The notes under the pieces are model-generated. The model had not been told where the DNA came from, did not search any database, and was given only the letters and a program-made list of their open reading frames with translations. Shown here in pieces: positions 4,847 to 29,125 of a DNA stretch of 32,950 nt. Origin of the DNA: a virus. The DNA lies in IMG/VR virus record IMGVR_UViG_3300025151_000157, positions 1 through 32,950 of that record, one strand, 5' to 3'. Made by a program: the position numbers and the translations under genes. The stretch's first letter is position 1, and the number at the start of each line of letters is the position of its first letter.

Positions 4847-4863
4847 ATAATAGACAAATTTAG

Positions 4864-4880
4864 TTCTAAATATTAGAACC
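4864..4880. repeat. 17-bp palindrome ahead of the portal start
   Basis: GTTCTAA / ATA / TTAGAAC is a perfect 7-bp inverted repeat, 18 bases upstream of the preferred portal ATG (4846) and just after the previous gene's stop. It could be a small operator or an RNA hairpin around the ribosome entry site; it may also be chance in AT-rich DNA. Confidence 0.4.
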
Positions 4881-4888
4881 ATCAAGGG

Positions 4889-5340: not shown

Positions 5341-5446
5341 GGTACCCCCTTATTATAAATATTCTTCTTAGGTCTCTCACATTTTCTACTGTTCAGTAGA
5401 AAGTGCGAGCAGTATATATTAAAGGTTTTTAGGCTACCCCCCTCTC
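5341..5446 (-). promoter_or_regulatory. hairpin-centred control element, copy B
   Basis: A large hairpin, CTCACATTTTCTACTG (5376-5391), loop TT, CAGTAGAAAGTGCGAG (5394-5409), 16 pairs with two G:T. On the minus strand it is followed by CTAAGAAGAA, then TTTATAATAAGGGGG, ending about 15 bases before the ATG at 5329. Nearly the same ~110-bp arrangement occurs at 29011-29125, including AT-rich and C-run flanks on the other side. Nothing ends upstream of this copy on the minus strand, so a terminator role does not explain it; a promoter, possibly for a phage polymerase, or a structured 5' leader fits better. Confidence 0.6.
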
Positions 5447-5525
5447 TATCTCTGACGATTATCACGGCTCCCTTAGTATTGCAAACATTATATTTAAATA
5501 TTACTTACATACCTTACCAAAACTA

Positions 5526-5582
5526 ACCGCTCATTTAGAGGCATATCCGTTATGAGCGGTACTGTTTTTGAGCGGTCGCTCA
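5526..5582. repeat. TGAGCGGT inverted-repeat cluster (operator or iteron-like)
   Basis: ACCGCTCAT (5526-5534) and ATGAGCGGT (5552-5560) are perfect 9-bp inverted copies; TGAGCG-GT-CGCTCA (5569-5582) is a perfect 6-bp palindrome containing another TGAGCGGT. Four half-sites of one motif within 57 bases suggest a protein-binding site such as a repressor operator or iteron. Confidence 0.55.
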
Positions 5583-5780
5583 TTAAAACCGCCTATACGT
5601 CTAGCAAAACACTGGGATTTTTCATAAATTTTTTCACAAACCCTGAGATATATAAGAGGCTGCCACCCAAAAACACCACCCCCCACCCGTGGCGTACCTA
5701 ATAACCTATAACTTCCTACAATCTAGCTAATGTTTAGTTGGTGATATGGCTTAACCTACTGAGGATCAATGGATAGTGCA

Positions 5781-5830
5781 CACTGAGCAATTAATCCTGT
5801 CCAGTATTCAGTGTAAATGGTTCAATGTTC
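5781..5830. repeat. dispersed repeat copy with inverted partner
   Basis: CACTGAGCAATTAATCCTGT, followed by CCAG, at 5781-5804, then ATTCAGTG and GGTTCAATGTTC, the latter the reverse complement of GAACATTGAACC. It is one of several divergent copies of the same short repeat in the window. Confidence 0.45.
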
Positions 5831-5904
5831 GAATGAGCGGGCAGGCTATGTGGGATCAACTGAGCCGATCCGCATTGATACATACCAATCTGAACACCTG
5901 TACT

Positions 5905-5933
5905 CTGAACACTGAGCATTGAATCCTGTACAG
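5905..5933 (+). repeat. dispersed repeat, best intergenic copy
   Basis: CTGAACACTGAGCATTGAAT continuing CCTGTACAG (5905-5933). Related copies lie at 6985-7007, 7965-7988, 9785-9831, 11008-11030, 15201-15223 (inside the giant gene), 29859-29885 (inside terminase) and 32914-32940 (inside the helicase gene). Confidence 0.5.
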
Positions 5934-6047
5934 TTAATCACCCTTCATGAAAGGTTATCAATACGCAGCTAATATATTTATCTAAATAAATGTTGAGATA
6001 TACAGCTGAGAATGTAAAATGGGCACGGGATAAACCCGCATTTAAAA

Positions 6048-6497
6048 ATGAAAAACGATACAAAGAAAATAATAGGAGCTCTCTTTGAGCTAATCAGCAG
6101 ACTAATTGGCAGTGCATTCTTTATGGCACTTATGGCATTCTTATTTGGCATACTGGCACTCTTTGTCAGTATGATTGGGATACAATTAGTTTATGACACA
6201 GAGTACGTAGTATTCGGTAAGATTGTAATTGGTATATCAGCTGTACTCTTTTTAGTTGGTACAGGTATGATGGGTTGGATGACTCATTATGAAGTCACTG
6301 AAGATATTGCTGACTTTAAGAGAGCGATCAAACCCGCTGGCAAAACAAAGCCTGTACAGGAATCCGAAGTTAAGGTGTACGAAAGAATTCCTTCAAGTGA
6401 TAGTCAGCTCGATTACTGCTTAGTCCCTGTCTCAGATTACGCACCCGCCCCTCAGTCCAATACAATCTACGTTTCAGGTACAACTACAATCAGCTAA
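6048..6497 (+). CDS. two-TM membrane protein, unknown function
   Basis: A 149-aa protein with two hydrophobic segments, ~21-49 (LIGSAFFMALMAFLFGILAL..) and ~54-78 (VVFGKIVIGISAVLFLVGTGMMGWM), separated by a short loop, then a ~70-residue soluble tail with Pro/Ser-rich end (APAPQSNTIYVSGTTTIS). It is probably an inner-membrane protein with the tail in the cytoplasm if the short basic N-terminus is inside. I do not recognise a family. It is the first gene of the plus-strand island, preceded by a small hairpin and an AT leader with no Shine-Dalgarno. A holin is possible by topology, but the position beside non-lysis genes and the long tail argue against it. Confidence 0.7.
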   Translation: MKNDTKKIIGALFELISRLIGSAFFMALMAFLFGILALFVSMIGIQLVYDTEYVVFGKIVIGISAVLFLVGTGMMGWMTHYEVTEDIADFKRAIKPAGKTKPVQESEVKVYERIPSSDSQLDYCLVPVSDYAPAPQSNTIYVSGTTTIS

Positions 6498-6501
6498 GAA
6501 T

Positions 6502-6987
6502 ATGAAGAATATGGAATTACGATACAAAGTACATTTATCAGACAGGTGTCCTCTAGTTAATCTAGAGGACATTTTTGATTATTTAGATGAGGCTGAGTGC
6601 CACGTTATTAATACTGCACTTGAGTTCACTCGCACTAAGTCAGTGGTTGAAGGCCCCACATTATTGTTAGGTGATCTCACTTACTTCGACGTTCAGTATG
6701 TCATCGACTCTGCAAACGATATGATCGAAACAATCTTGAAAAGGAAGGGTGATCTGTATGCAGATTTTAAGAAAGTCTTTGATAGGTACTTCAATATCTT
6801 AGACCCTGAAAGCTGCTCTCGTTTTATCTGCGTCAAAGGTAACTATGATCGGATGCAAGGGGGCGATATGGACACTATATGGAACCTAGAAGATGCCGAT
6901 TGGTTAGAACAGTTTCCTTCAGAGTTAATCCCTGAAAAGGAATGGAGGTCGAAAGAAAATAAGATTCCAGTACCAAAGTCAAAATGA
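6502..6987 (+). CDS. hypothetical protein
   Basis: A 161-aa acidic, mostly helical soluble protein. It starts 5 bases after the membrane-protein stop, so the two are one operon; a second ATG lies three codons in. Features seen: an N-terminal LRYKVHLSDRCPLVNLEDIFDYL segment, a central VIDSANDMIETILKRKGDLYADFKK helix, and two Cys near residue 105-110 (SCSRFICVKGNYD). No catalytic motif or known family is recognised. It ends where the first hairpin leader begins. Confidence 0.65.
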   Translation: MKNMELRYKVHLSDRCPLVNLEDIFDYLDEAECHVINTALEFTRTKSVVEGPTLLLGDLTYFDVQYVIDSANDMIETILKRKGDLYADFKKVFDRYFNILDPESCSRFICVKGNYDRMQGGDMDTIWNLEDADWLEQFPSELIPEKEWRSKENKIPVPKSK

Positions 6988-7074
6988 ACACTGGGCGTTG
7001 CACCCTGTATGACGCAGGGTGCATAGCTTGGTGGTTAAGGTGATCATCAAACAAAAATAACTAAACAACGAAAA
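6985..7074 (+). promoter_or_regulatory. repeated hairpin leader, copy 1
   Basis: An 8-bp perfect hairpin GCACCCTG (7000-7007), loop TATGACG, CAGGGTGC (7015-7022), then ATAGCTTGGTGGTTAAGGTGA, and finally AAACAACGAAAAATG at the next gene's start. The same hairpin (identical stem and loop) plus near-identical downstream sequence precedes the DUF932-like gene at 7981-8040. It is preceded by a TGAACACTGGGCGTTG copy of the dispersed repeat. It is probably a transcript-level element (processing, stability or translation control). Confidence 0.6.
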
Positions 7075-7968
7075 ATGAAATATTTAGAATCTGAAAACAA
7101 AGGGTTTGTCATAAACATTCAATTATCTGATGAACAATGGCAGCACCCATATTTAGTTCATCTAAGGACAGAACGATTAGACCCAGACACTGGAGATATG
7201 ATTGATTTTGAAAGGTCAAGTTATCATCAGTTTGAGTCATATGAATTTGCATTCGATTATGCAAACAACCTTAAGCGGGACATGTTCTGTAGGTTAAAGG
7301 ACACACCTGTAATCATCGAAGATGAGGTTTTAATGGATACAGTAAAGCATATCCCATATCCAATCAGGGAAGCCCGTAATGCACATGAAAGTAATTTATT
7401 GGCTTGGGTATGCCGACTAAAAGCGGGCAGTATTGTTGATGTTTATATTAATCAGGCTGACAGGGACGGCAGGGTATTGGCAGTGTTACCACCAAGGGGT
7501 AATAAGTATGGCAAGTTACCGAGAGTACTTATTGAGTATGTAATGCCAAGGGGCTCGACGGCATTAGTTACAATTGGGTGTGGCCCGTTATCATATGGAG
7601 GCCTTGCAAAGCATAAAGAGTGGATGCATGCCATTAAGACTCAGATGGGCTATGAGGGCCACACTGTTACAACTAAAGCTGAGGGCCGATACGGCAATGA
7701 GCGGGAAGGCACTATTGAGATATTGCCAATATGTGGACAGGCCCAAGGTGGAGCGACTTGGTGTTTCCCTGTTAACCCACCAATCTACTTAGGTGGTAAC
7801 GGCACTGAGGGTAATGATAATAGAGAACAGGTATACCCAATAACTAATAGAAAGTATCGCAATATCGATTATGGAGATTGGGGCTTCCAATTTACTAGAC
7901 CTAATTGGGATTCAACCAACCGAGATTTAAACCCTTGGGTAGCGAGATCACAAGATTTTGTGTCCTGA
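7075..7968 (+). CDS. hypothetical protein
   Basis: A 297-aa soluble protein with beta-rich, Gly/Tyr-rich C-terminal half (PLSYGGLAKHKEW, GRYGNEREGTIEILPICG, TWCFPVNPP, YGDWGFQF). The N-terminal ~90 residues have FVINIQLSDEQW and YHQFESYEFAFDYANNLKRDMF, an alpha/beta pattern. No family is recognised and no catalytic motif is obvious. The start follows AAACAACGAAAA, the same A-rich leader as the next gene, rather than a Shine-Dalgarno. It lies between the two identical hairpin leaders, suggesting its level is set in the same way as the DUF932-like gene. Confidence 0.7.
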   Translation: MKYLESENKGFVINIQLSDEQWQHPYLVHLRTERLDPDTGDMIDFERSSYHQFESYEFAFDYANNLKRDMFCRLKDTPVIIEDEVLMDTVKHIPYPIREARNAHESNLLAWVCRLKAGSIVDVYINQADRDGRVLAVLPPRGNKYGKLPRVLIEYVMPRGSTALVTIGCGPLSYGGLAKHKEWMHAIKTQMGYEGHTVTTKAEGRYGNEREGTIEILPICGQAQGGATWCFPVNPPIYLGGNGTEGNDNREQVYPITNRKYRNIDYGDWGFQFTRPNWDSTNRDLNPWVARSQDFVS

Positions 7969-8062
7969 GTCCTGAGCATTGCACCCTGTATGACGCAGGG
8001 TGCATAGCTCGGTGCTTAAGATGAGTACTGATAAACAAACAACGAAAAACAAAATATATAAA
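7969..8062 (+). promoter_or_regulatory. repeated hairpin leader, copy 2
   Basis: CCTGAGCATT (7971-7980) followed by the same hairpin as copy 1, GCACCCTG (7981-7988), TATGACG, CAGGGTGC (7996-8003), then ATAGCTCGGTGCTTAAGATGA and AAACAACGAAAAAC (8037-8050). Because this leader is shared with the previous gene and ends at the same A-rich motif, the DUF932-like gene most likely starts at ATG 8063, not at GTG 8000 inside the hairpin. Confidence 0.6.
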
Positions 8063-9247
8063 ATGGATACATTAGAAATAACACCCGCAAGAGAGCAGTC
8101 AGTCTTAACCGCTCAGAGTTCAAGTCTAGCAGCTGCTGACAGATCCTTTGATCAGGTCTTAAGGCAGATCAGCAGACCGAGACAGGACATAGTCACACCT
8201 ATGAGAGGTATGCAGTTCAAGTGGGATGATAGCGTTGGTCAGACTGGCCGATACCTAATCGAGCTTCACAATAAATCTCGGTTTGAGTTTTCATTCCCAA
8301 CTAACAAATACTTCAACGAGCAAATGTACTCTCGTTTAGCTAAGGGTCTTAAACCTTACGCTGACTTTATGCAGTCCAACGGGCAGCGAGATCTATTGCT
8401 AGAAAATGTGAATAGGCAGCTACAAAGTGACGATAGAAAGTCATTGGTAAGAGCCCAAGAAAATGCCAATGGTTTGTACATAGCCAAAGCATTGGTCAGT
8501 GATATGTACAAGCCAATTGATGATGATGTAATACTGGATGCTATCCTACCAATGATTGATGGGAAGGATTCAATATACAAAGTTATTGGAGGCCGTGTTG
8601 GTATGGAAAAAACACATCTTAAGATTGTATCTAAAGACCCTGTATTTGATATTGGCGATAGACCAATCCACTTGGGGGCTTTGTACATTAACTCAGGGGT
8701 TGGTGCTAGTAGGTTTAAATACCTACTTTTTATCTGCGATGCTTTTTGCACTAATGGTATCATCTTTAACCAGAGGACTCAGTTTGAACTTTCGCACACT
8801 CACAAGGGTGCAAGGTACTCTAAAGAGTTTGGCAAATTGATGGGCGATACTTTTAAGCGAGAGGAGCTGAGGGCTATACAGTCTATGGTTAAAGAAACAA
8901 CCGCTGCTGCACTTGATCCCGCTCGACATGCAGAGTTTAAAGAGCTTTTAGAAGCCAGTGCTAAGAGACCTGTAACAGGTGACACTGCTGAGGTTATCAA
9001 TAGACTCGGTAAAGGTATCAAGTTATCAGCGTTGGAGGCTAAATTGGCAACGATAGCAATTAGAGACAATGAGCATAATCAGTACGGAGTGCAGGCAGGG
9101 TTAACTCGTATGGCTCAGGAACTAGATTCATACGACCGCAGGTTGGAAATCGAATCCTTAGCGGGCAGCATTCTTACTATGAGTAAAGAACGTTGGGAAA
9201 CAATTGCAGCAACTGTTAAGTCTGATCAAGTCGAGCTTGCAAGTTAA
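8063..9247 (+). CDS. DUF932-like phage/plasmid protein
   Basis: 394 aa from MDTLEITPAREQ (upstream in-frame GTG 8000 and ATG 8021 lie in the repeated leader). The central segment IHLGALYINSGVGASRFKYLLFICDAFCTNGIIF.. followed by ELSHTHKGARYSKEF resembles the conserved core of DUF932 (the phage/plasmid-like TIGR03299 group), where a W/D.-x-C.NG hydrophobic motif is followed by basic/His residues; size ~300-400 aa also fits. The function of DUF932 is not established; members occur on phages, plasmids and near defence islands. The N-terminal 90 residues and the helical C-terminus (LDSYDRRLEIESLAGSIL) are less conserved by eye. Its stop overlaps the next start (TAATG). Confidence 0.6.
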   Translation: MDTLEITPAREQSVLTAQSSSLAAADRSFDQVLRQISRPRQDIVTPMRGMQFKWDDSVGQTGRYLIELHNKSRFEFSFPTNKYFNEQMYSRLAKGLKPYADFMQSNGQRDLLLENVNRQLQSDDRKSLVRAQENANGLYIAKALVSDMYKPIDDDVILDAILPMIDGKDSIYKVIGGRVGMEKTHLKIVSKDPVFDIGDRPIHLGALYINSGVGASRFKYLLFICDAFCTNGIIFNQRTQFELSHTHKGARYSKEFGKLMGDTFKREELRAIQSMVKETTAAALDPARHAEFKELLEASAKRPVTGDTAEVINRLGKGIKLSALEAKLATIAIRDNEHNQYGVQAGLTRMAQELDSYDRRLEIESLAGSILTMSKERWETIAATVKSDQVELAS

Positions 9248-9609: not shown

Positions 9610-9779
9610 AAAAATTAAAACTATACAAGTTCACTTTCTATGGGGCCCCTTCGCATTATATGGATAAGGAACCAAGTAAAGAGGACATACTCAGTGAAAT
9701 TGAGGAGCACTTATCTTATGCTCAAAATCTAAATCAAATTACTACAGTGACGGCCACTGAGCAGTCGACTAAAAAGTAA
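9606..9779 (+). CDS. 57-aa hypothetical protein, ATGA-coupled
   Basis: A short open frame MKKLKLYKFTFYGAPSHYM.. ending ..TATEQSTKK, 57 residues. Its ATG overlaps the stop of the upstream gene as ATGA, a classic coupling arrangement, and it ends 30 bases before an intrinsic terminator, as expected for the last gene of an operon. Residues 1-13 look like a beta strand, and 24-42 (SKEDILSEIEEHLSYAQN) a helix, giving a plausible small folded protein. The family is not recognised. Without the coupling and terminator context it would be doubtful. Confidence 0.6.
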   Translation: MKKLKLYKFTFYGAPSHYMDKEPSKEDILSEIEEHLSYAQNLNQITTVTATEQSTKK

Positions 9780-9808
9780 ATAGACTGCACACTGAACACT
9801 GAATAATG

Positions 9809-9842
9809 AAAGGGGCATCCTGTACAGGGTGTCCCTTTTTTT
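9809..9842 (+). terminator. intrinsic terminator of the plus-strand island
   Basis: AAAGGGGCATCCTG (9809-9822), loop TA, CAGGGTGTCCCTTT (9825-9838): 14 pairs with two G:T, running into a T-tract (9836-9842). The upstream arm contains CATCCTGTACAG, the core of the dispersed repeat, which is preceded here by CACTGAACACTGAATAATG. Confidence 0.85.
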
Positions 9843-10141
9843 GTGTTTTTAAAGGCCCTCAGAATCGCTTGTATGAAATAACACTGGGTCATAGGCCAGT
9901 ACAGGCTATCCTCAGGGCCTTTAAAAATGCCTTAGAATCGCCTTTAATAATATTTACCTAATAGTTTATTAATAATAGCGAAAGCGATTCCTGAGCGAAC
10001 CTCGGCGCAAACAGGGTTTTGAAAAAAATTTTGTGGGTAGTTCTTATGTTAAGTTAATCCCACCCCAAAATGTAAATGTATTTAAGGAGATGGGTTATCT
10101 TTTGGGGTTGCATATAATTTTTATAAAGATTAGAGTTTTGT
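9843..10141. other. origin-like or operator region upstream of the DnaA-domain gene
   Basis: No gene in ~300 bases. TTTTTAAAGGCCCT (9846-9859) and AGGGCCTTTAAAAA (9914-9927) are a perfect 14-bp inverted repeat 54 bases apart. CCTCAGAATCGCTT (9857-9870), CCTTAGAATCGCCTT (9930-9944) and the inverted AAGCGATTCCTGAG (9982-9995) are three copies of one motif. Between the second and third lies an AT-rich tract (9944-9977). Further down are A/T-runs (10020-10033) and AAGGAG at 10085-10089 (see rejected items). A replication origin or a multi-site operator fits. Confidence 0.45.
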
Positions 10142-10896: not shown

Positions 10897-11065
10897 TAAT
10901 ATATCTTCGATTTGCTTATTATATTGATGTGACATACAGAGGGGCTTAAACGTGCCCCCCTCACGGAGTTAGGATGGTTTAATCGTTGTTCAACCTTTCT
11001 CTGTGATGAACCCTGTACACTGTATCATGATCTATGAGGGGTTTTTAAATACAGTGTATGGGGTT
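10897..11065. terminator. convergent intergenic region with hairpins
   Basis: Lies between the ends of the plus-strand DnaA-domain operon and the minus-strand giant gene. It holds GAGGGGC / GCCCCCCTC (about 10941-10963, bulged) and CCCTGTACACTGTAT (11011-11025) with ATACAGTGTATGGGG (11049-11063), 15 positions with two non-Watson-Crick, whose left arm is another copy of the dispersed repeat. Hairpins are appropriate for bidirectional termination, but U-tracts are short or misplaced, so efficiency is uncertain. Confidence 0.4.
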
Positions 11066-14000
11066 CTACTCTTTAAGATATATTCTTCGTTCTCCTCCAA
11101 ATATTCCTTTATATATTCTTTCAACGTCTTTAGATCTTCCTCTGCTTTTCTTTTTAAGAGTATCTAAAAAGCTTTTGTTTTCTCTTAAGAATTGTTTCTC
11201 AGTGATGTACCCCTTTTTAACAATATCTATTAAGCTTTTCCTAATCCCAGCGTCTTTCATTATATCCTCTACAGTATTTTCACCGAGTTCTTTTTGGTAT
11301 GCGTCGTAAGCATTTCTAGCATCTCTTAATCCTTCAACCATCCCTTCTTTCTCAAGCTCTATCATTTCTTTTACAGAATCAGGTGAAAACCCTTTAGAAG
11401 TTTGTAACAGTTTCTTTTTCCTAGCTTGCTCAAAGTACACTCCTTCTTTGATATCCTCGAACCTTCTTCTGGCGTTGCCTTCTACGTTCATGGGATAAAG
11501 TTTAAAGGGCAGTAAGTGTTTTACTATTTCTCCTAAAGGCCCATAAGAATTTAAATTAGTACCAAATATTTTTCTTATGTCTTCGTCTTTTATATTTTTA
11601 AAGTCTCCTTCAATGGCCTCTAAAGATCTGTTGGCAGCTAATATTGTAGGAGGGGCTACCCCTTTCTCCCAAATATAATTGAGTTGAGTAGCTAATTTAT
11701 TAGGTGTGTAGTCCCCAACAATTTTCAGACCTGAGTTAGCATCTGTGTTATTAAAGACATCTGCGACAGCAGAGAATAAAATTTGAGGGTTTAAGAAAGT
11801 AGCTGATAGATAGCTTATTGTCATATCTCTTATAGCCTTTGAAGGTTCCCCTCGGTAAAGGTTTTCTAATCCCCTTGTAAGAGAGTCGAGTATAGGAGAC
11901 ATAGGGTGGACATAAGTTAGACTTGTAGTTACTGGCTTATCTTCGCTATCTCTAAAGTAGAATAAGTTTTGAACCCTTGACCACTCAGGAGAACCCAACC
12001 TATAATTTTTGTCTTCCTCATCAGAAACATTAGCAAGTAATAACTGAGACATCTTTGGAAGCATCATGTAATAAACAAAGTTCCATTTAAAATAACCGTT
12101 TCTTCTTTGGGTTCCCCTTTCTCTGATCACAGGATTAGAACTCATTCTTTCTGTAAGGGCTTGCCTTGGAATATTAGTTAATATCCTTGGGTTCTCAGCC
12201 ATAAACCTAGCAAACGGAGCAGCTATTATTCTAATTACAGGCGTTTCAGTTATCCACTTTATGATAGGAGCCCCCTGACTTCTAGACTGTTGTGTCTTAA
12301 GAATAATTTCAGCAGCTAAAGAATCTATCTGTGCATTAGAAAGATCCCTATACATATCGTCTCTATTACTTGTAATAGAATCTTCTCTAGCTGCTTCGAT
12401 GTAAGATTTCTCATACTCAAATGCTCTGATTTTCATAGCATTATCTAATGCTAAAACAAGAGCCTGTGTCTTTTCTACCGCAAGACTACCTCCTTTTTTA
12501 GCAACTTTAAGAGACTTCAATATAGTCTTTTCTTGCAAGCTACCTTCAGGGAAGTATTTATTTAAAACTTTTTCAGAAAAGGTAGGCCCGTCTAACTCGT
12601 CCTGCTCAAGCTGGAGTTCTTCCATTTGACGTTTCGGATTGCCTTGGAATAAGTCAGCTAATAGAGCGTAGTCTACGCTTCCTTCTAGAACTCCCATAGC
12701 ATCTAACTTAGCGTAGTAAGCCATAGTTTGTTTTTTAGCAGGTTTATTTCCTAAGTCCCATTGCCTTTTAATCTCTGTTCCCAACTCAGGAATGTACCCT
12801 CTAGTCGGCCTAAAGTTTGAAGAAGAGTGTCCGAAAGTAGGTATTCCATTTTGCCCTAAGAACACAACCGAACCTAAAAATTGTCTTGGGTAGAAAGGAA
12901 TTGATCCTGCTGTTTTAGACAACAAGGTTAAACCTGTTATGTAGGCAGCTAAGTCCTCTACATTGTCTAGTAGTTTCTTATTTTCTATTGACTTCTCAGG
13001 TACAAGAATTTCTCTTAACTCTTTGGCTACTTCTTCTGGAGCTAATAAGTTTCCGTATTTCTCAACAGATCCGTCTTCTGTTTTAACCCTATAATTTATA
13101 AATGGGTTGGAGCTTGGCAACTTTCGTTTGCTCGGATCAATTGGGATACCTGAATCATCAAATTTGATTTGGAAATTTTCAGGGTTCTTTTCGTCAGGGT
13201 CCACATCGGGTCCATCCATTGAATCAGAAGTAACAACTTCTACCCATCCCTTGTACGGGCTTTCTTGGTTAAAAGATTCTGCTCTAGCAGTTTCTTCGGC
13301 CATCTTTTCTTGAGTGACTAGCCATCCTGCTTCCATCCCTACCCTAACCATGTGATCTCTTACCGCCATTTTAGAAGCTAAACTGCCTAAGTTTAATATA
13401 GTTCTATAAAGGATATCTATATTAGACTCTTCAGTAAATTCACCTAAAGCTAATCTCAAAGCTTTTGGTATTTCTTGTTGCCTTGCTTTTAAACTATTAA
13501 CTTTATTCTTACCTGTGTAACTTATTAAAAATTCTTCAAGAGCTTTCTCTGCTAAGTTCTTAGCACTGGGATCATTTTCTAAAAAGTCTTTTGCTTCTTT
13601 CTTTGCTACATCTTTATCCTTGCCTTTCTCCTTCATTAGAAACTCAACTCTTTGAGACTCTATTTGAGTAGCAAAATAATCCAAAGCTATCTCTCTAGAC
13701 TTATCGTGTACCTCTAGAGTCATAAATTCGTTTGTCCAGTCAGGCCGAGTGAAAGCTCTGTATTGTCTTGTTAAATAAATTTGAAGGTTCTTACCAATAA
13801 TTAAGTCAACCTCAGGAGAAGTTACAGATAGTATTTTCCCTATTGTAAGAGACAACTCATCTGCTAATTTCCTTAAAGACACTATGTGGTTAGCTAGTTC
13901 AGGAGAATCTTCTCTAATTTGTTCAAGGGCTTTTACTTGTTTTTCTTTTTCTGATTCAATTTTTTGTTTACGAGCAATTTGTTTAGCTTTTTCCCTGTCG

Positions 14001-23000: not shown

Positions 23001-26000
23001 AACACTTCATCTTCGGGTAGAAACCCATTTTCTATAAGAGGGCGTGATTCTTCTTTTTCTAAAAGTTCCCTAGACCCTTCTCTTTCAAGCCGACGGATTC
23101 TAACTCCTGACGCTTCAACTCTTTTAACGCTTGGGTCAGCAGTAAAAGCAACTAAAGTTTCTCCAGAATTTTCAACAGATGTATACTCAACTTTATAAAT
23201 TACAGACCCATCCTCAGACTCCATCTCTGTAACTCCTACTATATTCTCAGCTAACACCCTGACAATTTCTTCTTCCTTTCTCAAGCCACTTATAGTTACG
23301 TCTGTAGTTGTAGACATATTAAAAGCACCCGCAGGAGCTACGGGGTCTTTAGTCACCCCAGCCATTAATTGTTTTCTGTTTTGTTCTAAAACTTCTGCGG
23401 TTAAAGGAGCCCCATACTCTCTAGCATTTTTTGCTTTTTCATTTAACTCTTCCGTTTTTTCCATTACCTCATCCACCACTTTCTTATATTCTTCCTCAGT
23501 AATTGAAGACATGTCAGGGCCTAAGCCTAATAATTTTCTTTTACCTGCTGCTGCAAGAGAAGCTCCTAAAGGTATTCCTCCCCCCATTATTCCTCCTAAT
23601 ATTCCTGCATGAACAAAAAGACCTATCCTGTCATTTAAACTAAGGCTTTTTTCTAAAGCCCAAGTGTCTACGTAACTTCCAATAAACTCATCTAACCCCT
23701 CTTCTATTGCTTCAGGCAACGCATACTTTAAAGCACCCCTTGGAATCTTCTTGAAAAGAGTACCCGCTATTCCTCTGGCTACTGCATTTTTTAAACCGTT
23801 TCTAGCTATAGTGCCACTAACCTCTGAAACCATTCTGTGTAATAAAGGGGTTCCATCTTTAGCTGTTGCCTTTGTTTGTAAACTCAATGCTCTATAAGCA
23901 GCATCAATATTTTTTGATCCTGTAACTTTACTTAGTTTAACAGCTCTCTTTAAAGCTAAGTCTTCCAAACCCCCTAGTCTAAGTAATTGAAATCCTCCTA
24001 CGAGAGATCCTGTTATGGCCCCCCTTAGCAAACCTCCTGTTAATGCTTTTTTTCTTTTTTCTTCAGGAGTCATCCAGTCAGGGAGAGCATCGTATATAGT
24101 ATAGTAAGACGAGCTTGCTGACCGAAGAGAAGAAGGAGCCGTTGCACTTAAAAGCATACGTCCTGTGTTGGTTAACTTCGTAGATTTTGACGAAGAAATA
24201 GCTATAAGATCATCGGCGAGTTTATTTATTACGTTTGTACTAGTTTTAGCTACAGGAGTAACTGTCCCACTTAAAATCAAATCTGCTGCTTTTGCTTTTG
24301 CTGCTCCTTTTTCTGTAATAATAAAAGAGTCTTTCAAAGCAACTGCTGCTGCTTTGCCCGATGTTACTTTATATCCTTGTTTAGTTAAATTTTTTAGAAG
24401 TATTTTACTCGTTCCTTTTTTAAGTAGCGTAGATAATCCTCCTGTTAACATTAAATCAAAACCAACTTCTCCTGATATAGCAGCAGCATCTATAGCGTAC
24501 CCGCCTTTACCAAAAAGATTGGCTAACTTTTTCCTGTCTTGTATTTTTTTGCTAAAATATTCTGATGGGCCTTTACCTCCTATGCCGATCATATCGGTGA
24601 CATTAAATAAAAACTTTAAGTTACCATCGATAATAGACTTCCCTCCTACTTCGAGAACTCCCATAAATTTACTGTAGTGATCTCCATCAGCTAAAAAGTC
24701 ATCCATAACTTCGTAACCTTCTCTTGGCTTACCACTCTTTATTTCTTCTTCAAAAAAGTCTTCCCAGTCTGAGCCTACTCCTCGCCCTAATTTTCCACCT
24801 ACTTCTGTAACTAACCTAACGTGTTCCTTAAAATTATTTTTTAAGAAATCCGTTCTTTGCCTCTTAATATCTTTTATTTCCTCAGGGGTTAAATTAGGAT
24901 GAGTTTCTAATGCTTCATTAAAAACTGCTCTATTAGGAAATAAATTAGGATGAACAGCTATACTGAGATCACCTAACCTTTTTATATTTTGATGCCTCTG
25001 TCCTTCTCTATCAAAATAATGAAACTGACCTGAAGCGTTTAGCCCATGTCCGATTATCTGAATCATGCTATCTAAAATTTCTTCATCAGAATGGTTTTTC
25101 AAAGAAGGTATATTATCTCTTACTCCTTTTGCTATAGCCGAAACATCTGTTAAAAATTTTCTATCTTCGTCATCTAATCCTTGCAACAGTTTAGTTGCAG
25201 TTACACCAACAGGATCTAAAGGAAGTCTATTTCTAAAAGCGTGATCAGCTCCAGCTTCTGTAAATGATTGAATAAAAGATGTAAACTTATCTCCTATATC
25301 TAAAGCAAAACCTAATCTTTGATGATCATCATGAAAAGGAAGAAAAGTGGTTGCTGATATTTCTTCGTCAGCTGCTTCTTTGCGTCTTAAGTCTTCGTCT
25401 TGTGAACGAAGTAATAACTCAACCGCCATAGCAGACCTTAATAAAGACCCTTCTATAAGTTTAGCTTCTTCAAACTCTTTTCTTTCGTTAGCATCCGTTC
25501 CTTTGTAATCTACATTCCATTGCGAATAATATTCATCAAATTGATCAGGCCCTACTTTTTCAGTTTTAAACTCTTTAGCAACATCTTTAGCTTGATTCCT
25601 AAGCTTTTCCATTGCTTCACCTATTCCAATTATTCCTTGCTGTGTTCGTTCTAACTCACCATAAGTTTTTTTCGTATCCCCCAAATAAGAAAGTTGATTG
25701 GCTATTTCAAATATATCAGCTTTACTTATAGCCCCCATCTCTAGACTATAATCAATAGCTTTTTGTAAGTTGGGAAAAGTTTGAGTTAGGAATCTAGTAG
25801 GTGCTACGGCTATTTCTCGTTCTCCTTCTTCATTTGTATATGCAGCAAAAGGAATAGGAATAGTATTAAAGTTTCCTTTTTCTTTATTAAACTCTGCTCT
25901 ACCTACTGCTTCCTTTTTAAAGTTATCAAAAATAGATACAGTTTCTAAATAATCATTTAGAGGTCTGTCAATTTTACTAAGAGGCTCCATAAGAAGCGTT

Positions 26001-26491
26001 TCACCTTTTCCTGTTTCTGTATATTGCTTAAAGGTGACATTCCCATCCTCATCTTTATTACTATTAAAGGTGTTGTATATATCTAAAGTTTTATCTGTAG
26101 CAGGGTTTACTCCGTCCCACTTAGCACTTTCTGCACTAAGCCTGTTAAATAAAGCAACAGACTTTTCAGCGGGTATCCTTTCATCAAAAATTTTAGTTAT
26201 CCAGTCTTCTTTTTTACCTATGTCTGGCTTTAAAACTTTAGCTTCTTCGTATGACCTATTTACAACTTTATTAAGAGTGTTTTGATTGTAATTACCCGAA
26301 CTTACAAATTGATTGATAAGGTCAAAAGTAAAGTTTCCTAGCTCGTCTACGTTTCCTCCGCTCCATTGTAATGGTTCAGGATCATCTTCCCACTGCCATG
26401 CTAAAGAGTTACCCTCTGTTTTCTTGTTCTTTAACATAGGTTTTATTGAGTTTATTTCAGCCACTTTATTATCCCTGTGTGTTATTTCCAA
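11066..26491 (-). CDS. giant multidomain polyvalent internal/ejection protein
   Basis: 5141 aa from TTG; a GTG at 26464 with AGGGA upstream is an equally good start (5132 aa). No frameshift over 15.4 kb. By position: helical N-terminus; Gly/Ala-rich hydrophobic segments at ~665-704, ~810-839 and ~955-986; a weak EEIIHQ motif (1796-1801); Lys/Gln/Glu coiled coil ~2098-2268; a domain with WYDGAN..SPQKDW (~2390-2425) and VTMDTHA (~2645), recalling large phage protein domains (DUF7178-like, unverified); zincin with HEIFH (3295-3299) and IHEFVTETFSNPEFQ (~3390-3408); SAM methyltransferase with DWGSGFGYG (3582-3590), SNVVMNVI (~3640) and FQKGFT (~3702); coiled coil ~4128-4193; C-terminal PFARFMAENPR region (~4750) as in large polyvalent proteins. 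Such proteins are thought to be injected with phage DNA and counter host defences. Clustering with virion genes supports this; delivery is inference. Confidence 0.85.
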   Translation of the reverse strand: MEITHRDNKVAEINSIKPMLKNKKTEGNSLAWQWEDDPEPLQWSGGNVDELGNFTFDLINQFVSSGNYNQNTLNKVVNRSYEEAKVLKPDIGKKEDWITKIFDERIPAEKSVALFNRLSAESAKWDGVNPATDKTLDIYNTFNSNKDEDGNVTFKQYTETGKGETLLMEPLSKIDRPLNDYLETVSIFDNFKKEAVGRAEFNKEKGNFNTIPIPFAAYTNEEGEREIAVAPTRFLTQTFPNLQKAIDYSLEMGAISKADIFEIANQLSYLGDTKKTYGELERTQQGIIGIGEAMEKLRNQAKDVAKEFKTEKVGPDQFDEYYSQWNVDYKGTDANERKEFEEAKLIEGSLLRSAMAVELLLRSQDEDLRRKEAADEEISATTFLPFHDDHQRLGFALDIGDKFTSFIQSFTEAGADHAFRNRLPLDPVGVTATKLLQGLDDEDRKFLTDVSAIAKGVRDNIPSLKNHSDEEILDSMIQIIGHGLNASGQFHYFDREGQRHQNIKRLGDLSIAVHPNLFPNRAVFNEALETHPNLTPEEIKDIKRQRTDFLKNNFKEHVRLVTEVGGKLGRGVGSDWEDFFEEEIKSGKPREGYEVMDDFLADGDHYSKFMGVLEVGGKSIIDGNLKFLFNVTDMIGIGGKGPSEYFSKKIQDRKKLANLFGKGGYAIDAAAISGEVGFDLMLTGGLSTLLKKGTSKILLKNLTKQGYKVTSGKAAAVALKDSFIITEKGAAKAKAADLILSGTVTPVAKTSTNVINKLADDLIAISSSKSTKLTNTGRMLLSATAPSSLRSASSSYYTIYDALPDWMTPEEKRKKALTGGLLRGAITGSLVGGFQLLRLGGLEDLALKRAVKLSKVTGSKNIDAAYRALSLQTKATAKDGTPLLHRMVSEVSGTIARNGLKNAVARGIAGTLFKKIPRGALKYALPEAIEEGLDEFIGSYVDTWALEKSLSLNDRIGLFVHAGILGGIMGGGIPLGASLAAAGKRKLLGLGPDMSSITEEEYKKVVDEVMEKTEELNEKAKNAREYGAPLTAEVLEQNRKQLMAGVTKDPVAPAGAFNMSTTTDVTISGLRKEEEIVRVLAENIVGVTEMESEDGSVIYKVEYTSVENSGETLVAFTADPSVKRVEASGVRIRRLEREGSRELLEKEESRPLIENGFLPEDEVLAESAGVGQAVGSFAKRNAVAFKQNNISVVADPTEQQLAEAGVGQNVDSQQFQINSSNEFYIEINEQGKIFIIFNTKNVSEVIASMPKAKRVQYMKSLLIESMATSMEVTSSRDEFLSLEGNQKGTTSIKNYIKQKRMAVYNEMTQYEKDRIASLLLDKPITEGLEEEVQEKSLIGAAQINYLIQFEQGEGSTVQIERTAWEGKGRGGALSKAVQEKLFDIIEYLRAAIRTQQDGYRPELRKQIEAISAKLTFSWFEDVQNLSDEEFNTKIDEATSEEVEGPVGEKGIEGIDGVTQNQENIPTTLNTTTVGSLNLAEIKTLNFDIEQPSEENTVAGINEETGEVVIIQSMTVADAQFQIDSIKYIQYNNKFLLNPIKVNKVLIDPNENYESDANSKLVVVSTVDSEPVQINDIKADEDTPAFRAAILGNPLFSRNIVEGNFDGDNVAFVVKDINGTPFLYAVPKRAIFRRELTPEDEQAILEEPKGVPVSLFSEPIKELFAPDATPDNSSPERVNETEVDIIKSSVPSPDEHVEDAGESTIDVEEGDTDQAPDSKVKSKSTIDRLYSKVRSSIKKKLLRASRGYYEFNSDDGSIGWFDRVTKTIGLSPQAVKAILSVNSPAAGKAIIKLIVDEEIIHQVSYESLTYTEIRNAIEELTNVNRVGSNALITMAREYNKPINGFPLESVISFLRMGQDAYLDLPQGAEVSVKNKLIKEGLEEFLFEELLRKHVSLISGEGATEVDYNWLKIGEDADGNKTPNPKVLSIYRRYISNFLIGRLKAKNELSKDSALGPYFAAAVHKVAKEYKAAKEGFRRKPDSSLLDEPDIDLGVYSKQLSQIGHDISTVPPEEEEREEWLSEIDPEEIKKSVIAGRTVGTRSPSAKGKEGEGVNPDNQVTLADLKTNPEAYKKNALILLNFPIIAREYSSDPLLAKVRKAKDPLNKAELKQQQLQQEISFNKKKLKNDLITFKVNEQSDQLKPQRKEEVNEAKQQFKESSKKVDKVNADIKKLQTSFKRASNNLKATISKELKKINASIKKASAVNNKEKVDLLLEQKEQVKEVLSKDSPMATLMEDINEKIKSARLRLNNLKAENKANKKILDDSLKEYSRPKVARSSIKLSNEQVDSIIDGLAQDVENKKPVRVGAKNLIVQRRVINNKEKELEKTSVTVRNKANKFGETLKSLAQSKKAMPIEKADEIYSTLNEVASKNLSLLIKAFPQDLRVFASLWYDGANTIANRFAQTFGVSIEQAAAVLAVNSPQKDWYMNVALAERTMHIYKTKQSALFDKSMAANFLKRAGEPELKYDKEGNAFYEGNATPVYDEQGNHVVDENGILQFNNWSSQKSKDKLALDTKILTLGLKGKKLKDIQGITFDFKGKKKTYSKEALQARFVRMFSEAAANKNLRDVKTFNVIRPDGAILERSSMSDKGKPRSVAWGSYGTVEKSINILNAAGDQDMSVISNELGLMHKVRSFYNNIVDPSNKDGHVTMDTHAIAAILLKPVSGNSTEVTQNFGGKGTAADSVLGLSGLYPAFAEAYRSVEFENELTGGRYLPREIQSITWEAVRQFFQPKWKSNADHVRAVTDIWNSYQDGDLTFEEAQESIITFVQRSKSNMPPESEVLSMGELIDSANTNRGIGVGRPDWGNASTTTVTENIEKPKQFSSVRWENLDQSFDDLASKNIEGEINPYEENIYSLLKEAATLAESEIPNTFNFFASSQGRFLSESEYTIIKNPSEENEKDKQKEFLLTPANKYSFQEAHFSHAAAALGLQEYIRVTERVKEDGSLLVAIKAGTTQPYYISRAGLKIAQSFYEEGTEIIFEDRLDMEVSEYLVKDTKGPFVYTGKTQNTSSLIPLSVRLAPLRDTIQYKQDGVDEEYKLHVRSMLERMNPYMAAKDKYEIGSMIPIAPKLETDVKSILQEIIKNKNFNTQEDSAYKQTAETLLKVLSDKMLNVRVYNKPTKKRSNSSVKNGIHLSRTRMEERPEGFPNSESFVQKELVGYGEWLRFKFNSPLDVILNWQAIYKGLKYEADRDAPWSLIPDVSNWGELDVLNSDQKEKLNLFIKYFSNAEGETDPDVLNLNKHQGLINVINWTNVENFPKEGLFFDGVGKKFLNSRRIPYAQANVIRGVEPRTIIHEIFHQVTQSEFYQYDLNPPIKGKMLKTYYERRSEDPQIPPHIRKFLKVYLKAVEYGDEFLYSRKGQKPSKKTFYVTKGMQGASADKASKISFYGLGNIHEFVTETFSNPEFQKWLMSIPNTETKGGEIKSLWDTFVSLISDMLASFSISQASRGQSIETSLLGAAIETSLEVATKADNIKGDVQFDWKNSFTAAAKVKETNQLKIDREKYGPSEYSSFSSIRTKDYGLDKPPVTREFLEKNFNLVQEDSNQTQAASTVGTYDKFWEIIKDISQEDSSEKITKYNLLDWGSGFGYGTEALKAKAASVAKDSSLFQVKSYEPYYKENEKTFAPSLKNKPAPKSQDFIVSNVVMNVITADERINLLQDIYTALKEGGTAIITARSVSQVFSVKSEPTVVGPAEIVTSKGTFQKGFTKESLNQFVKEVLPDAVIVNKEPLIKSLQVNPLVVIINKPRLAGSLGSDPEFSVQGSSIRVNPKDADKILAGKELGKYSLYVSAEAVEGGYSLLNKDSYKEKKEQLDKAKVRLAAHLDQEREADEQIGKEYVPFEYDFVVIEKNQTRFLLMSALEDPHPFVVESKRVPNDENKEVIDGTIREAIYHRVENILGQRHPLYEYHKTITEQEENLGLYDLKKDGKKWAPSGSSKVWTEQIKAAGIDPAFLEREHLKIKNYFFPEKQETAIHVEDLTETPEYKEITESWGELMNILTAEIPVMDTERQEGSGGTNIIGRAAEVTEDVIAATLRTIQRKIYSPTAHENWRKGNPFFQLFLGTQEREIKKYLERSSFFKRTIGKQVAQFKATTDKLLDEVYTKQGKEIPSQTIVDSTGSLDVSPSEETLNEIEEKYLNKLNEISKNEELDNAERKKAYVENFNDREKAKQIARKQKIESEKEKQVKALEQIREDSPELANHIVSLRKLADELSLTIGKILSVTSPEVDLIIGKNLQIYLTRQYRAFTRPDWTNEFMTLEVHDKSREIALDYFATQIESQRVEFLMKEKGKDKDVAKKEAKDFLENDPSAKNLAEKALEEFLISYTGKNKVNSLKARQQEIPKALRLALGEFTEESNIDILYRTILNLGSLASKMAVRDHMVRVGMEAGWLVTQEKMAEETARAESFNQESPYKGWVEVVTSDSMDGPDVDPDEKNPENFQIKFDDSGIPIDPSKRKLPSSNPFINYRVKTEDGSVEKYGNLLAPEEVAKELREILVPEKSIENKKLLDNVEDLAAYITGLTLLSKTAGSIPFYPRQFLGSVVFLGQNGIPTFGHSSSNFRPTRGYIPELGTEIKRQWDLGNKPAKKQTMAYYAKLDAMGVLEGSVDYALLADLFQGNPKRQMEELQLEQDELDGPTFSEKVLNKYFPEGSLQEKTILKSLKVAKKGGSLAVEKTQALVLALDNAMKIRAFEYEKSYIEAAREDSITSNRDDMYRDLSNAQIDSLAAEIILKTQQSRSQGAPIIKWITETPVIRIIAAPFARFMAENPRILTNIPRQALTERMSSNPVIRERGTQRRNGYFKWNFVYYMMLPKMSQLLLANVSDEEDKNYRLGSPEWSRVQNLFYFRDSEDKPVTTSLTYVHPMSPILDSLTRGLENLYRGEPSKAIRDMTISYLSATFLNPQILFSAVADVFNNTDANSGLKIVGDYTPNKLATQLNYIWEKGVAPPTILAANRSLEAIEGDFKNIKDEDIRKIFGTNLNSYGPLGEIVKHLLPFKLYPMNVEGNARRRFEDIKEGVYFEQARKKKLLQTSKGFSPDSVKEMIELEKEGMVEGLRDARNAYDAYQKELGENTVEDIMKDAGIRKSLIDIVKKGYITEKQFLRENKSFLDTLKKKSRGRSKDVERIYKGIFGGERRIYLKE

Positions 26492-27917
26492 AACTACGAT
26501 CTATTACCGCATCTTCTTCCTTGTTGCCACCCTGTGGAGTTCCCGTTGTTTCCACTGGAGCTACGGCAGCAACAGGAACAGACATTGAAAGAACAGATCC
26601 CGCAGTAAATACTAGCCCTCTTATTACGGTAACCATGTCTAAATATTTTTCTTCGTCTACTTCGACAGATCGATCTGAGCCACTACCCACTACTTCAGTC
26701 CACCTATCTTCATCGTTTATCAAACCTTTAACATCCGTTATACTCTTCGCTATATCTTTTGTGCTTTCATCAGGCAAAGCGGATATCATACTTTCAATAA
26801 CAGCTAAACCATTTTGTAATTGAGATTTAGCTACTTTTACATCTGAAGGAACTTGATCTTCTTCTGAGGGAAGAGCGTTTATGGTTTTAGATAAAAATGT
26901 CAACTTAGTGTCAACCCCCGCTTTTAAGCTTGCTACATTACCAGCTGCTATATCCCGATTTACTTTTTCCTTATCTGCCTTAGCAAAATCCTTAAGGCTT
27001 TTTGTTATACTATCACCTTCAACATAATCATATGGATGGTTTACTGAAAAGTTTAGTAACTGACTTCTTATTGCAAAGTCTTGTCTATTTTTAAGATCCC
27101 TAGCTTTTATTACTTCCTCTCTAGCAAAAGTAGATTCTGCTCCGCTCTCTGCCATCATTTGATTTATAACAGACATTTGTTTTGCGTTTAGATCCTCAGT
27201 AAGAACATAATTTCTTAAATCAGCTTGTGCTCTGTTCATCAACATGTTTGATTGTTGAGGGTCTTGAACAGAAATATCCTTAGCCTGTTGAATCATTGTG
27301 CCTACGTTACCAAGATTTATGGCTATCTGTTCTTTATTTTCTCTTGCTTTTAAGGCTACTTTTTCCGCTCTTTCAGCCTCATCCACTTTAGCTTTTGTTA
27401 AATCAATATCTAATTTCCTTTGCTCTTTTAATTGCTTATTTGCTTCAATTCCTTGTCGGGCAGCCTCTATCCCAATTCTTTGGTTTTGAATTTCGAGATC
27501 TCTCTTAGCAAATGCCTGTGCTTCTTGACCTGCTTTATTAAGGTCATCAGCAAACATTTGCCTGATACCTTCTTTGTCTTGAGCTGACAAACTAGAAGCA
27601 TTAATGTTATCGAAGTGTACTCTACGTAAAGCAGGTAAGTCTTTAACTGGATCCAGTAACCCAGCAGCTGTTGCAGCTTTTAATTCTTCGGCATCTTTTA
27701 TTAAATTGTTTGATTCTCTAGTAGCGATGTCAGGCTCCTGCATTTTTAAAAGCTCGCCTTGCAATCGCAGTTGTCTTCCTTCAGGTGTGTACGGACCTAA
27801 TCTACGGGCTGCTGCTCTGAACTTAGCTGACCGTGGCGTTACTTTTCTTTTCCCTTTAGACATAGATTGTCCAAACGGAGATGAAAATTCTATATCTGGT
27901 AAGTCTTCTAGTGCCAT
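26469..27917 (-). CDS. helical internal virion-like protein
   Basis: A 482-aa protein, nearly all predicted helix, with long coiled-coil stretches at ~135-200 (LEIQNQRIGIEAARQGIEANKQL.. KVDEAERAEKVALK) and a hydrophobic segment near ~425-450 (MVTVIRGLVFTAGSVLSM SVPVAAVAPV) before a Gly/Asn-rich tail. A basic N-terminal stretch (KGKRKVTPRSAKFRAAARRL) follows a short acidic leader. It starts two bases after the 337-aa gene's stop and touches the giant gene's start, so the three form one operon. By size, helicity and position it resembles podovirus ejection (internal core) proteins; no direct family match is claimed. Confidence 0.6.
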   Translation of the reverse strand: MALEDLPDIEFSSPFGQSMSKGKRKVTPRSAKFRAAARRLGPYTPEGRQLRLQGELLKMQEPDIATRESNNLIKDAEELKAATAAGLLDPVKDLPALRRVHFDNINASSLSAQDKEGIRQMFADDLNKAGQEAQAFAKRDLEIQNQRIGIEAARQGIEANKQLKEQRKLDIDLTKAKVDEAERAEKVALKARENKEQIAINLGNVGTMIQQAKDISVQDPQQSNMLMNRAQADLRNYVLTEDLNAKQMSVINQMMAESGAESTFAREEVIKARDLKNRQDFAIRSQLLNFSVNHPYDYVEGDSITKSLKDFAKADKEKVNRDIAAGNVASLKAGVDTKLTFLSKTINALPSEEDQVPSDVKVAKSQLQNGLAVIESMISALPDESTKDIAKSITDVKGLINDEDRWTEVVGSGSDRSVEVDEEKYLDMVTVIRGLVFTAGSVLSMSVPVAAVAPVETTGTPQGGNKEEDAVIDRSFGNNTQG

Positions 27918-27919
27918 TG

Positions 27920-28933
27920 CTAATCGTTTCTGTCTTTGTTTAGGTTTCTGTTTTTCTTAGCCTCTTCCTCTCTTCTTCTTTCGTTTTCTTTTATTTTATC
28001 ATTCATTCTTTTTTTAAGATTAGAGTCACCTGAATACTGAGATAATATTGTTCCTTGCCCAAAAGGTCTTCCACCAAATAGATCATCGTACCTTTGTTGC
28101 CTAGTTTTCCCTCTAGAATCTTTCTTATCAGGATCAAATTTATTTCTTTCCCGAACAGCTTTCTTATACTCTCTAATTTTTTTAAGCCTCTCTTCTCTCT
28201 GCCTTATAAGTTTTTCAGCAGGGTTAAAAGGCCGTCTTTTAATTTCACCTTTATCATCAATCTCTATTGGGGGGTTATCCATCTCCCTTAAATCTTTTGA
28301 AGTATAGTTAAAAAGAGTAGGGGTTTTTTCTCTTTTCATCCTTTCCTGTTGATCAAAAGCCTTTTCTTCTCTTGTAAGTTTATTGCGATTATAACTTTCT
28401 TTTGCTTTATTGAACCTGTCCCGCATCTCCTCGGTTACTTCCCTTGCGCCAGCAGCTTCATCTTTAATAAGGTTTCCTATATCCTTATATTTTTCTAAAG
28501 CGGTTTTTTTTGCTAAAATATTTTTACGCATAAAGTCTGCTGGATCAGTTAAAGGCTTGATTGATTTTGGAGGATCACTAAAATTTAATTTAGGACTACC
28601 CCCTTCTCCAACAAAAGAGTTGTCCATTCCAGCTAAAAACTCAGTACTGGATATTTTGTTGTCTGAAGAATTAGATCGAGGGCCTCTGTTAATAGCAGGA
28701 GGTTCTGTTGTTTCTACGTTAGAAACATTTTTAGTTCGGGGGCCCCTGTCCGTAAAGAGCTTAAAAAAATCAGCAATAGGATTATTCTTTGGTTTATCTA
28801 ATTTAGAAGCTGCCTTCCCCTTTTTTGCTGTCGGTTTTTTCTTTTTAGTTTTTTTCTTTTTATCATCGCTGGGAGGAAAAAGGGCTTCATCGATATAAGA
28901 TTGACTTTTGGTTGGTAGGTTGGGTTCAGCCAT
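27920..28933 (-). CDS. basic low-complexity internal or head protein
   Basis: A 337-aa, strongly basic protein. Residues 20-60 are Lys-rich (KKKKTKKKKPTAKKGKAASK), histone-H1-like; RGPR occurs twice (DRGPRTK and NRGPRSN, ~68-90); the rest is charged helix (RNKLTREEKAFDQQERMKRE, ERLKKIREYKKAVRERNK, NERRREEEAKKNR). It is probably unstructured or DNA-binding. No ribosome site is clear; the leader is AT-rich. First gene of the unit leading to the giant protein, about 80 bases past the G-run of the hairpin element at 29011-29125. A virion DNA-associated protein is the best guess. Confidence 0.6.
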   Translation of the reverse strand: MAEPNLPTKSQSYIDEALFPPSDDKKKKTKKKKPTAKKGKAASKLDKPKNNPIADFFKLFTDRGPRTKNVSNVETTEPPAINRGPRSNSSDNKISSTEFLAGMDNSFVGEGGSPKLNFSDPPKSIKPLTDPADFMRKNILAKKTALEKYKDIGNLIKDEAAGAREVTEEMRDRFNKAKESYNRNKLTREEKAFDQQERMKREKTPTLFNYTSKDLREMDNPPIEIDDKGEIKRRPFNPAEKLIRQREERLKKIREYKKAVRERNKFDPDKKDSRGKTRQQRYDDLFGGRPFGQGTILSQYSGDSNLKKRMNDKIKENERRREEEAKKNRNLNKDRND

Positions 28934-29010
28934 GTTATAAAAATATTAGTAAAATTTAAAGTACCTTAATAATTTAAATTCATAGTAAATAAAGTCAAAA
29001 TCTCATTTAC
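28934..29010 (-). other. AT-rich 5' leader of the 337-aa gene
   Basis: About 77 bases of AT-rich sequence between the element above and the ATG at 28933. On the minus strand it ends TAATATTTTTATAACATG, with no Shine-Dalgarno. No gene or hairpin is seen in it. Confidence 0.4.
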
Positions 29011-29125
29011 ACCCCCCTTTATATAAACTTCTTCTTAGAGTTCTCACATTTTCTACTGTATGTACAAAACCACTACAGTAGAAAATGTGAGCATTATATT
29101 ATAAAGTTTATAACCACCCCCTCAC
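29011..29125 (-). promoter_or_regulatory. hairpin-centred control element, copy A
   Basis: An 18-bp perfect inverted repeat, CTCACATTTTCTACTGTA (29043-29060) with TACAGTAGAAAATGTGAG (29074-29091), 13-base loop. On the minus strand it is followed by CTAAGAAGAAG, TTTATATAAAGGGGGG and an 80-base leader to the 337-aa gene. Flanks match copy B (5341-5446): GAGCATTATATTATAAAG against GAGCAGTATATATTAAAG, and C-runs at both edges. It begins at the terminase stop codon, so here it could both end terminase transcripts and start the next unit. Confidence 0.65.

Follow-up and report, generated by a model that had tools for sequence, protein, structure and literature searches.

A paired hairpin element changing in concert at the heads of two putative late operons in a family of uncultured phages

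The viral record IMGVR_UViG_3300025151_000157 of IMG/VR, analysed here over its whole length of 32,950 bases and called the window, is classed as linear and is therefore probably a fragment. It includes two copies of a hairpin-centred element, copy A (5341-5446) and copy B (29011-29125), which have the same orientation, that of the sense of the minus-strand late genes, and are listed as direct-repeat family D5 and inverted repeat I1. When the window was searched with copy A, copy B was matched at E=4.8e-10. In minus-strand order site A consists of AAAAACC, an inner hairpin, CTAAGAAGAA and TTTATAATAAGGGGG. The stem of this hairpin has 14 Watson-Crick pairs out of 16, the other two being one G-T and one A-C, and all 18 pairs of the site B stem are Watson-Crick. 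The original prediction gave arms of 16 and 18 bp and loops of 2 and 13 bases; these lengths and loops stand, the pairing being perfect in B and imperfect in A. Within the window, TTTATANNAAGGGGG is found at 0 mismatches in copies A and B only. On the late-gene strand both copies fold better than 200 of 200 shuffles (z -3.8 for A and -5.6 for B); the opposite strand also folds well (z -2.6 and -8.1).

Site B is found between the gene for the terminase large subunit, TerL, and a gene of 337 amino acids (aa), and site A directly precedes a 146-aa gene that is followed by a 755-aa gene (Table 1). The argument that no gene ends upstream of copy B fails, since the TerL open reading frame (ORF) ends inside the coordinates that had been given for that copy. 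Regarding the 146-aa gene, a longer ORF matches phrog_959, an HNH endonuclease, at E=9.8e-8, and the NUMOD4 match of the protein is below the cut-off. Its structure model (pLDDT 78) shows two similar beta-rich halves, and a fold search with it gave no significant match. Family searches with the 755-aa protein gave no match either, and its structure model was too poor to use. From the presence of TerL at B, and from gene position and conservation at A, both headed units can be considered putative structural, that is late, operons. A highly conserved 196-aa helix-turn-helix protein, encoded on the plus strand at 30933-31523, adjoins TerL divergently and is a possible small terminase subunit.

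Table 1. Positions of the element, its parts and the neighbouring features in the window.
Feature	Position	Strand	Remarks
Site A, whole element	5345..5433	-	covariance model R1 match 5346-5433, 87.5 bits; direct repeat D5
Site A inner hairpin	5376..5409 (arms 5376-5391 and 5394-5409, loop 5392-5393)	-	16 pairs, 2-nucleotide (nt) loop
CTAAGAAGAA motif, 3' of site A hairpin	5362..5371	-	
TTTATAATAAGGGGG tract, site A	5345..5359	-	0 mismatches
Site B, whole element	29012..29115	-	covariance model R1 match 29014-29115, 92 bits
Site B inner hairpin	29043..29091 (arms 29043-29060 and 29074-29091, loop 29061-29073)	-	13-nt loop
CTAAGAAGAA motif, 3' of site B hairpin	29029..29038	-	
TTTATATAAAGGGGG tract, site B	29013..29027	-	0 mismatches
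TerL (terminase large subunit)	29122..30888	-	phrog_2, E=2.4e-12; alignment; end falls within the coordinates given for copy B
337-aa gene after site B	27920..28933	-	ORF list; no match in family searches
146-aa gene directly after site A, two NUMOD4-like repeats	4889..5329	-	candidate reader of the element; conserved here in 34 loci
755-aa gene after the 146-aa gene	2618..4885	-	identity of 67-88% across clades; portal-like judged only from its position
Sigma70-like promoter TTGACT-N16-TAAATT, between site B and the next gene	28971..28998	-	9/12 matches, by itself not above chance
Possible promoter TTTGCA-N16-GATAAT, upstream of site A	5458..5485	-	9/12 matches, not above chance

The TerL of the window has relatives in more than 400 IMG/VR loci, which belong to an uncultured phage family sampled mostly from marine sites. 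Neither TerL nor the element had a match in DNA and protein searches of an isolated-phage collection, a search of IMG/VR with the exact DNA pattern of the arm plus CTAAGAAGAA gave no match, and an Rfam search of the element gave nothing above threshold. The only TerL relatives found in genome assemblies (L243-L245) are in metagenome bins named Opitutae and Blastopirellula, which are weak host hints and possibly binning artefacts. In the longest close relative, of 72.7 kb, about 6.6 kb of gene order recurs in diverged form at both ends, and the genome is therefore probably about 66 kb.

In nine close relatives, with TerL identities of 84-90%, the element again comes directly after TerL. Three of them have long contigs, and each of these carries exactly two strong copies, in the same orientation and 24.5-27.7 kb apart; here too A heads the orthologue of the 146-aa gene. 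A covariance model built from the close set also found the pair in the distant genomes G010 (24.2 kb apart) and G015 (20.9 kb apart), and six genomes of several clades have two copies in the same orientation and places, 21-28 kb apart. The sequence TATATAGGGG occurs at most twice per genome, and the element motif elsewhere is not above chance. The proposal that a repeat pair heads two minus-strand units is thus borne out in the window and in its relatives, and the search for further copies that had been suggested leads to the same two places.

A family search with the 146-aa protein identified 34 loci, most of which have a clear hairpin element just upstream; the element is weak or unclear in L139-L141, L143, L144, L152 and L157-L159, and for L162 and L163 the match begins inside the gene. 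The NUMOD4-like gene always follows A. Site B, after TerL and before the next late gene, is found in only part of the family, and in relatives without it the TerL stop overlaps or touches a promoter resembling TTGACT-N16/17-TATAAT. On a TerL tree of 67 rows the presence of B requires 4 changes, compared to 20 in shuffles, from which B is most simply ancestral and lost a few times. Judged from this distribution, it would be an old site kept by vertical descent, with loss rather than repeated gain. REP and REPIN palindromes, small mobile hairpins, are also short, intergenic and alike within a genome (PMC3116915). Unlike these and MITE-like elements, the element described here is present as two copies at fixed positions and is inherited with the genome rather than scattered.

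The element has a common anatomy across lineages. The 5' side often starts with CCCCC, followed by AAAA[C/G]TTT and 8-12 nt; the middle is taken up by the inner hairpin, whose stem counts 9-31 pairs and whose free loop has 2 to about 25 nt; and the 3' side consists of about 10 nt, often with TAGAA, followed by AA[C/G]TTTTATATA and, usually at site A, by GGGGG. The flank motif AAA[C/G]TTT is thus common to both sides of the hairpin. In the clade of the window G-runs are found on both sides. Pairing of the outer AAAACTTT and AAAGTTTT as a strict stem was considered and dropped, the motif being a near-palindrome of its own; about a third of the elements aligned by eye have C/C or G/G mismatches at the centre of these segments. 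In L257-L262 and L014-L027 site B is nested, after TerL, in a further inverted repeat, TGTATTTACATTGT(G/A)AG.. / ..CT(C/T)ACAATGTAAATACA.

The inner stems, on the other hand, are wholly different between lineages, for example CTCACATTTTCTACTG, AAACTGATTGGG, ATTTCCAGTTGTTTCT, GGAGTTACATTGGTTT and AATTCATTAAG. In 37 distinct hairpins, chosen by hand from a larger set, 558 of the 589 stem cells (95%) are Watson-Crick. Within the clade of the window two pairs have changed on both sides, with a covariation score that was reached by 3 of 500 shuffles. The arms are therefore conserved in related phages with compensatory changes; missing conservation would have spoken against the original prediction. 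Among the 37 hairpins G-T cells outnumber A-C cells 13 to 6, an excess of the kind that RNA would show but below significance (p=0.17).

In most genomes the two copies resemble each other more than either resembles its counterpart elsewhere. Among 12 genomes having both sites, the best match of A was its own B in 11 and the second best in the twelfth (permutation p about 2e-6), and the best match of B was its own A in all 12. When one genome per clade was kept, the own partner was best in 9 of 9 cases (p about 6e-6). In G010, G015 and G961, whose hairpins are distinct, the two copies are far more similar to each other than either is to the corresponding site of any other genome compared; elsewhere the difference is smaller, or close relatives reach similar scores. 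Given the age of B and the orthologous positions, this pattern indicates concerted evolution and not duplication at random places. The hairpin pair and its concerted evolution are well established by these comparisons, from which the mechanism has to be inferred. Such evolution could be due either to a trans factor by which both copies are read or to conversion of one copy by the other.

Conversion is part of an explanation that needs no reader: palindromes could be kept alike by recombination, hairpin or cruciform DNA being cut or copied and one copy repaired from the other by gene conversion or template switching. Near-perfect stems with no significant strand bias, the fast turnover of stem sequence between lineages and the presence of exonuclease, resolvase and DNA polymerase genes agree with it, and in G015 the likeness of A and B extends past the element, which favours conversion there. 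However, in several genomes, such as G013 and G102, the likeness is limited to the hairpin core and the flanks differ, which fits recognition. In addition, the flank motif and the places persist across lineages, with just about four losses of B, which argues for a function. We consider recombination by itself unlikely as the explanation.

If a factor reads the element, the 146-aa protein is the natural candidate. Its divergence correlates with that of the A element also when the divergence of the next protein is taken into account (partial r=0.26, p=0.0005).

The surroundings of the two sites are informative about how they could be transcribed. A small Lys-rich gene in sense orientation ends upstream of A in most clades. 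In L135-L165 a conserved small Lys/Tyr-rich gene (MADLKKQEYYKNNKKKRLEYQRKYY..., about 75-100 aa) lies 100-400 nt before the site-A gene, and was not found in the clade of the window. Read-through from TerL into B and, in most clades, from the small Lys-rich gene into A would thus include both sites in sense transcripts. Most clades have a sigma70-like promoter between the element and the next gene; on the site A side this is a block such as TTGATTCAATTTCTTTTCTGTGTTACTG, and the promoter architecture of the site B side recurs at the same place in relatives, including those without site B. In the clade of the window the distance from site A to the start codon is only about 17-20 nt, counted after the G-run. 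A block resembling the possible promoter upstream of A is present in G001-G003.

T7-type RNase III processing sites are long irregular hairpins between genes and beside promoters. The element could similarly be an RNA processing site or a 3'-end hairpin between operons, either cut by an RNase III-like activity or acting as a boundary that shields the downstream promoter from read-through. Each site does follow the end of a sense gene and precede another gene, and the two-tier stem with its variable sequence is compatible with such a role. An intrinsic terminator, looked for as a G+C-rich stem directly followed by a T-run, was not called at either copy, however. Concerted copy sequence is not expected of T7-type sites, and processing that is blind to sequence would leave the likeness of the copies within a genome unexplained. 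This explanation is in our opinion improbable.

A promoter or operator acting at the DNA level was also weighed. A phage activator would bind the extruded hairpin or the AAA[C/G]TTT pair and transcription would start at the TATATA-GGGGG tract, as in N4 early promoters or an activator-dependent late promoter. In N4 early promoters, used by the virion RNA polymerase (vRNAP), the hairpin is short, with a stem of 5-7 bp and its centre near -11 relative to the start, stem bases other than the conserved ones can vary provided that they pair, and there are few copies per genome (PMC4496689). The freedom of paired stem bases and the few copies are seen here as well, and the genome includes a gene for a giant virion-type protein. 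The sequence TATATAGGGGG follows site A in many clades, the GTGAGA-N17-TATAAT of copy A ends just before the G-run, and the spacing between G-run and start codon in the clade of the window also agrees with a start at this tract. On the other hand, TATAGGGG, the TATA-GGGG tract, is missing from many B copies, separate sigma70-like promoters are found downstream of the element, and the stems of 9-31 pairs, located about 30 nt before the G-run, depart from the short N4 layout (PMC4496689). The headed units are moreover structural and not early. Nor are there many copies of one consensus, as for a T7-like single-subunit promoter, with two strong model matches per genome.

No RNA polymerase gene, vRNAP included, was recognised. 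A search with PF00940, the T7-like polymerase family, gave no match, with the control of that search also silent, and the conserved C-terminal part of the giant protein showed no polymerase similarity to any solved structure (PDB). As for a polymerase within the giant protein, a DxDxD-like motif is present in only 3 of 4 genomes, and the conserved C-terminal part has no structural relative. The giant ORF itself (5141 aa, minus strand, 11066-26491) has orthologues ranging from 3465 to 6299 aa in relatives and is conserved at its two ends, and its middle has a DUF7178 match and a weak methyltransferase match. With no T7-like polymerase match (control silent), no polymerase similarity of the C-terminal part of the giant protein and loss of the tract in many B copies, the case for an N4-like promoter is weak, and the claim of a promoter for a phage RNA polymerase is not upheld; a DNA-level promoter or operator in general appears quite unlikely. 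From the earlier interpretation, a structured element heading two minus-strand late units and the conservation of its arms are retained, the missing-upstream-gene argument and the phage polymerase are not, and a shared structured leader is possible.

The location of the sites also brings to mind replication or packaging, with A as the main origin, priming hairpin or pac site and B as an optional second one. In the window, as in several relatives, a long non-coding and repeat-rich stretch adjoins site A, and B is beside TerL and near the possible TerS gene with the helix-turn-helix. Cumulative GC skew, however, follows gene direction, with no specific turn at A or B in all genomes, and headful packaging does not need two sites of the same orientation about 24 kb apart; such a role is very improbable.

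The window includes other repeats. A second repeated hairpin, GCACCCTG..CAGGGTGC, is found at 6991-7083 and 7972-8064 (93 nt, 74% alike), preceding two plus-strand genes of the other transcription unit. Short repeats of the TGAACACTGAGCATTGAATCCTGTACAG type, in or near the non-coding stretch, are located at 5769-5942, 9778-9827, 11007-11029, 15178-15222 and 32908-32930. A long inverted repeat with 28-nt arms, 86% complementary and 26 nt apart, lies at 9846-9927, downstream of a 120-aa gene.

The explanation that we tentatively favour, and regard as possible but somewhat short of probable, is a hairpin control site of the late operons, present in two copies and recognised in its folded form as nut or put pairs are. 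It starts from conserved places and orientation, compensatory pairing, likeness within genomes set against divergence between them, and loss of B without repeated gain; the trans factor, the RNA rather than the DNA form, and the effect on late transcription are what we infer. The element would be a cis-acting site at the heads of two structural operons, in which the inner hairpin must pair and its sequence is specific to the lineage. A phage factor would recognise the folded hairpin and change together with it, and since it would read both copies, both in a genome must carry the same version. By analogy with lambda nutL/nutR and HK022 putL/putR, the folded form, transcribed in the late-gene sense, could modify the passing RNA polymerase or the late transcript.

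In nut sites, boxB differs between phages and matches within one phage. The nutL and nutR sites of lambdoid phages (boxA plus boxB) are likewise few, in transcript sense, and consist of a hairpin by a conserved linear motif between or before operon genes; the mEp-immI phages have three nut sites (PMC11893012). The element has in common with the lambda N/boxB type a transcript-sense hairpin, few matching copies per genome and a lineage-specific sequence. It differs in that its stems have 9-31 pairs and its loops no common sequence, unlike the short boxB with its purine-rich loop. A boxA-like sequence was not seen in the element, no search aimed at boxA having been made. It also heads late and not early operons, and an N-like protein exists only as candidates: the 146-aa NUMOD4-like protein and the small Lys-rich protein are the candidate RNA-binding antiterminators. 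The element therefore shares with nut the copy number and the concerted hairpin, and lacks the nut sequences. HK022 putL and putR are two similar structured RNA sites of ~70 nt per genome at two operons, each with two stem-loops, and act without a phage protein (PMC9378689). The resemblance lies in the two mutually similar structured sites at two operons. The element is, however, one long two-tier hairpin and not two adjacent conserved stem-loops, it has no Rfam match, and its wide sequence divergence between lineages is not predicted by a host-only partner. Judged by the tests made, the element is neither a put RNA nor an N4-type promoter nor an intrinsic terminator.

Several observations weigh against a nut- or put-like control site. 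Transcripts from the sigma70-like promoter downstream of the element in most clades would not contain the hairpin, and no downstream terminator was identified that would need antitermination. The G-T over A-C ratio given above does not favour RNA significantly, and the extended likeness in G015 points to conversion. The link between the A element and the 146-aa protein may be mere physical linkage, and no signal of co-evolution was found between B and this protein in a comparison of low power (n=8). A more specific proposal, which we regard as doubtful, is a paired recognition system in which the hairpin sequence would be a lineage-specific code for both virion-gene operons, read in its folded form, as RNA or extruded DNA, by a co-evolving phage factor; such a system would be unrelated in sequence and parts to N/nut, put, Q and N4.

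Environmental metagenomes commonly include members of the phage family, for which the collection of phages searched has no isolated relative. Where a structure persists at two distant sites while both change sequence in parallel, this strongly indicates, in a form open to testing, either recognition by a co-evolving partner or conversion targeted to the sites. The differing hairpins found in nature already make up a set of matching and non-matching pairs with which the factor could be sought.

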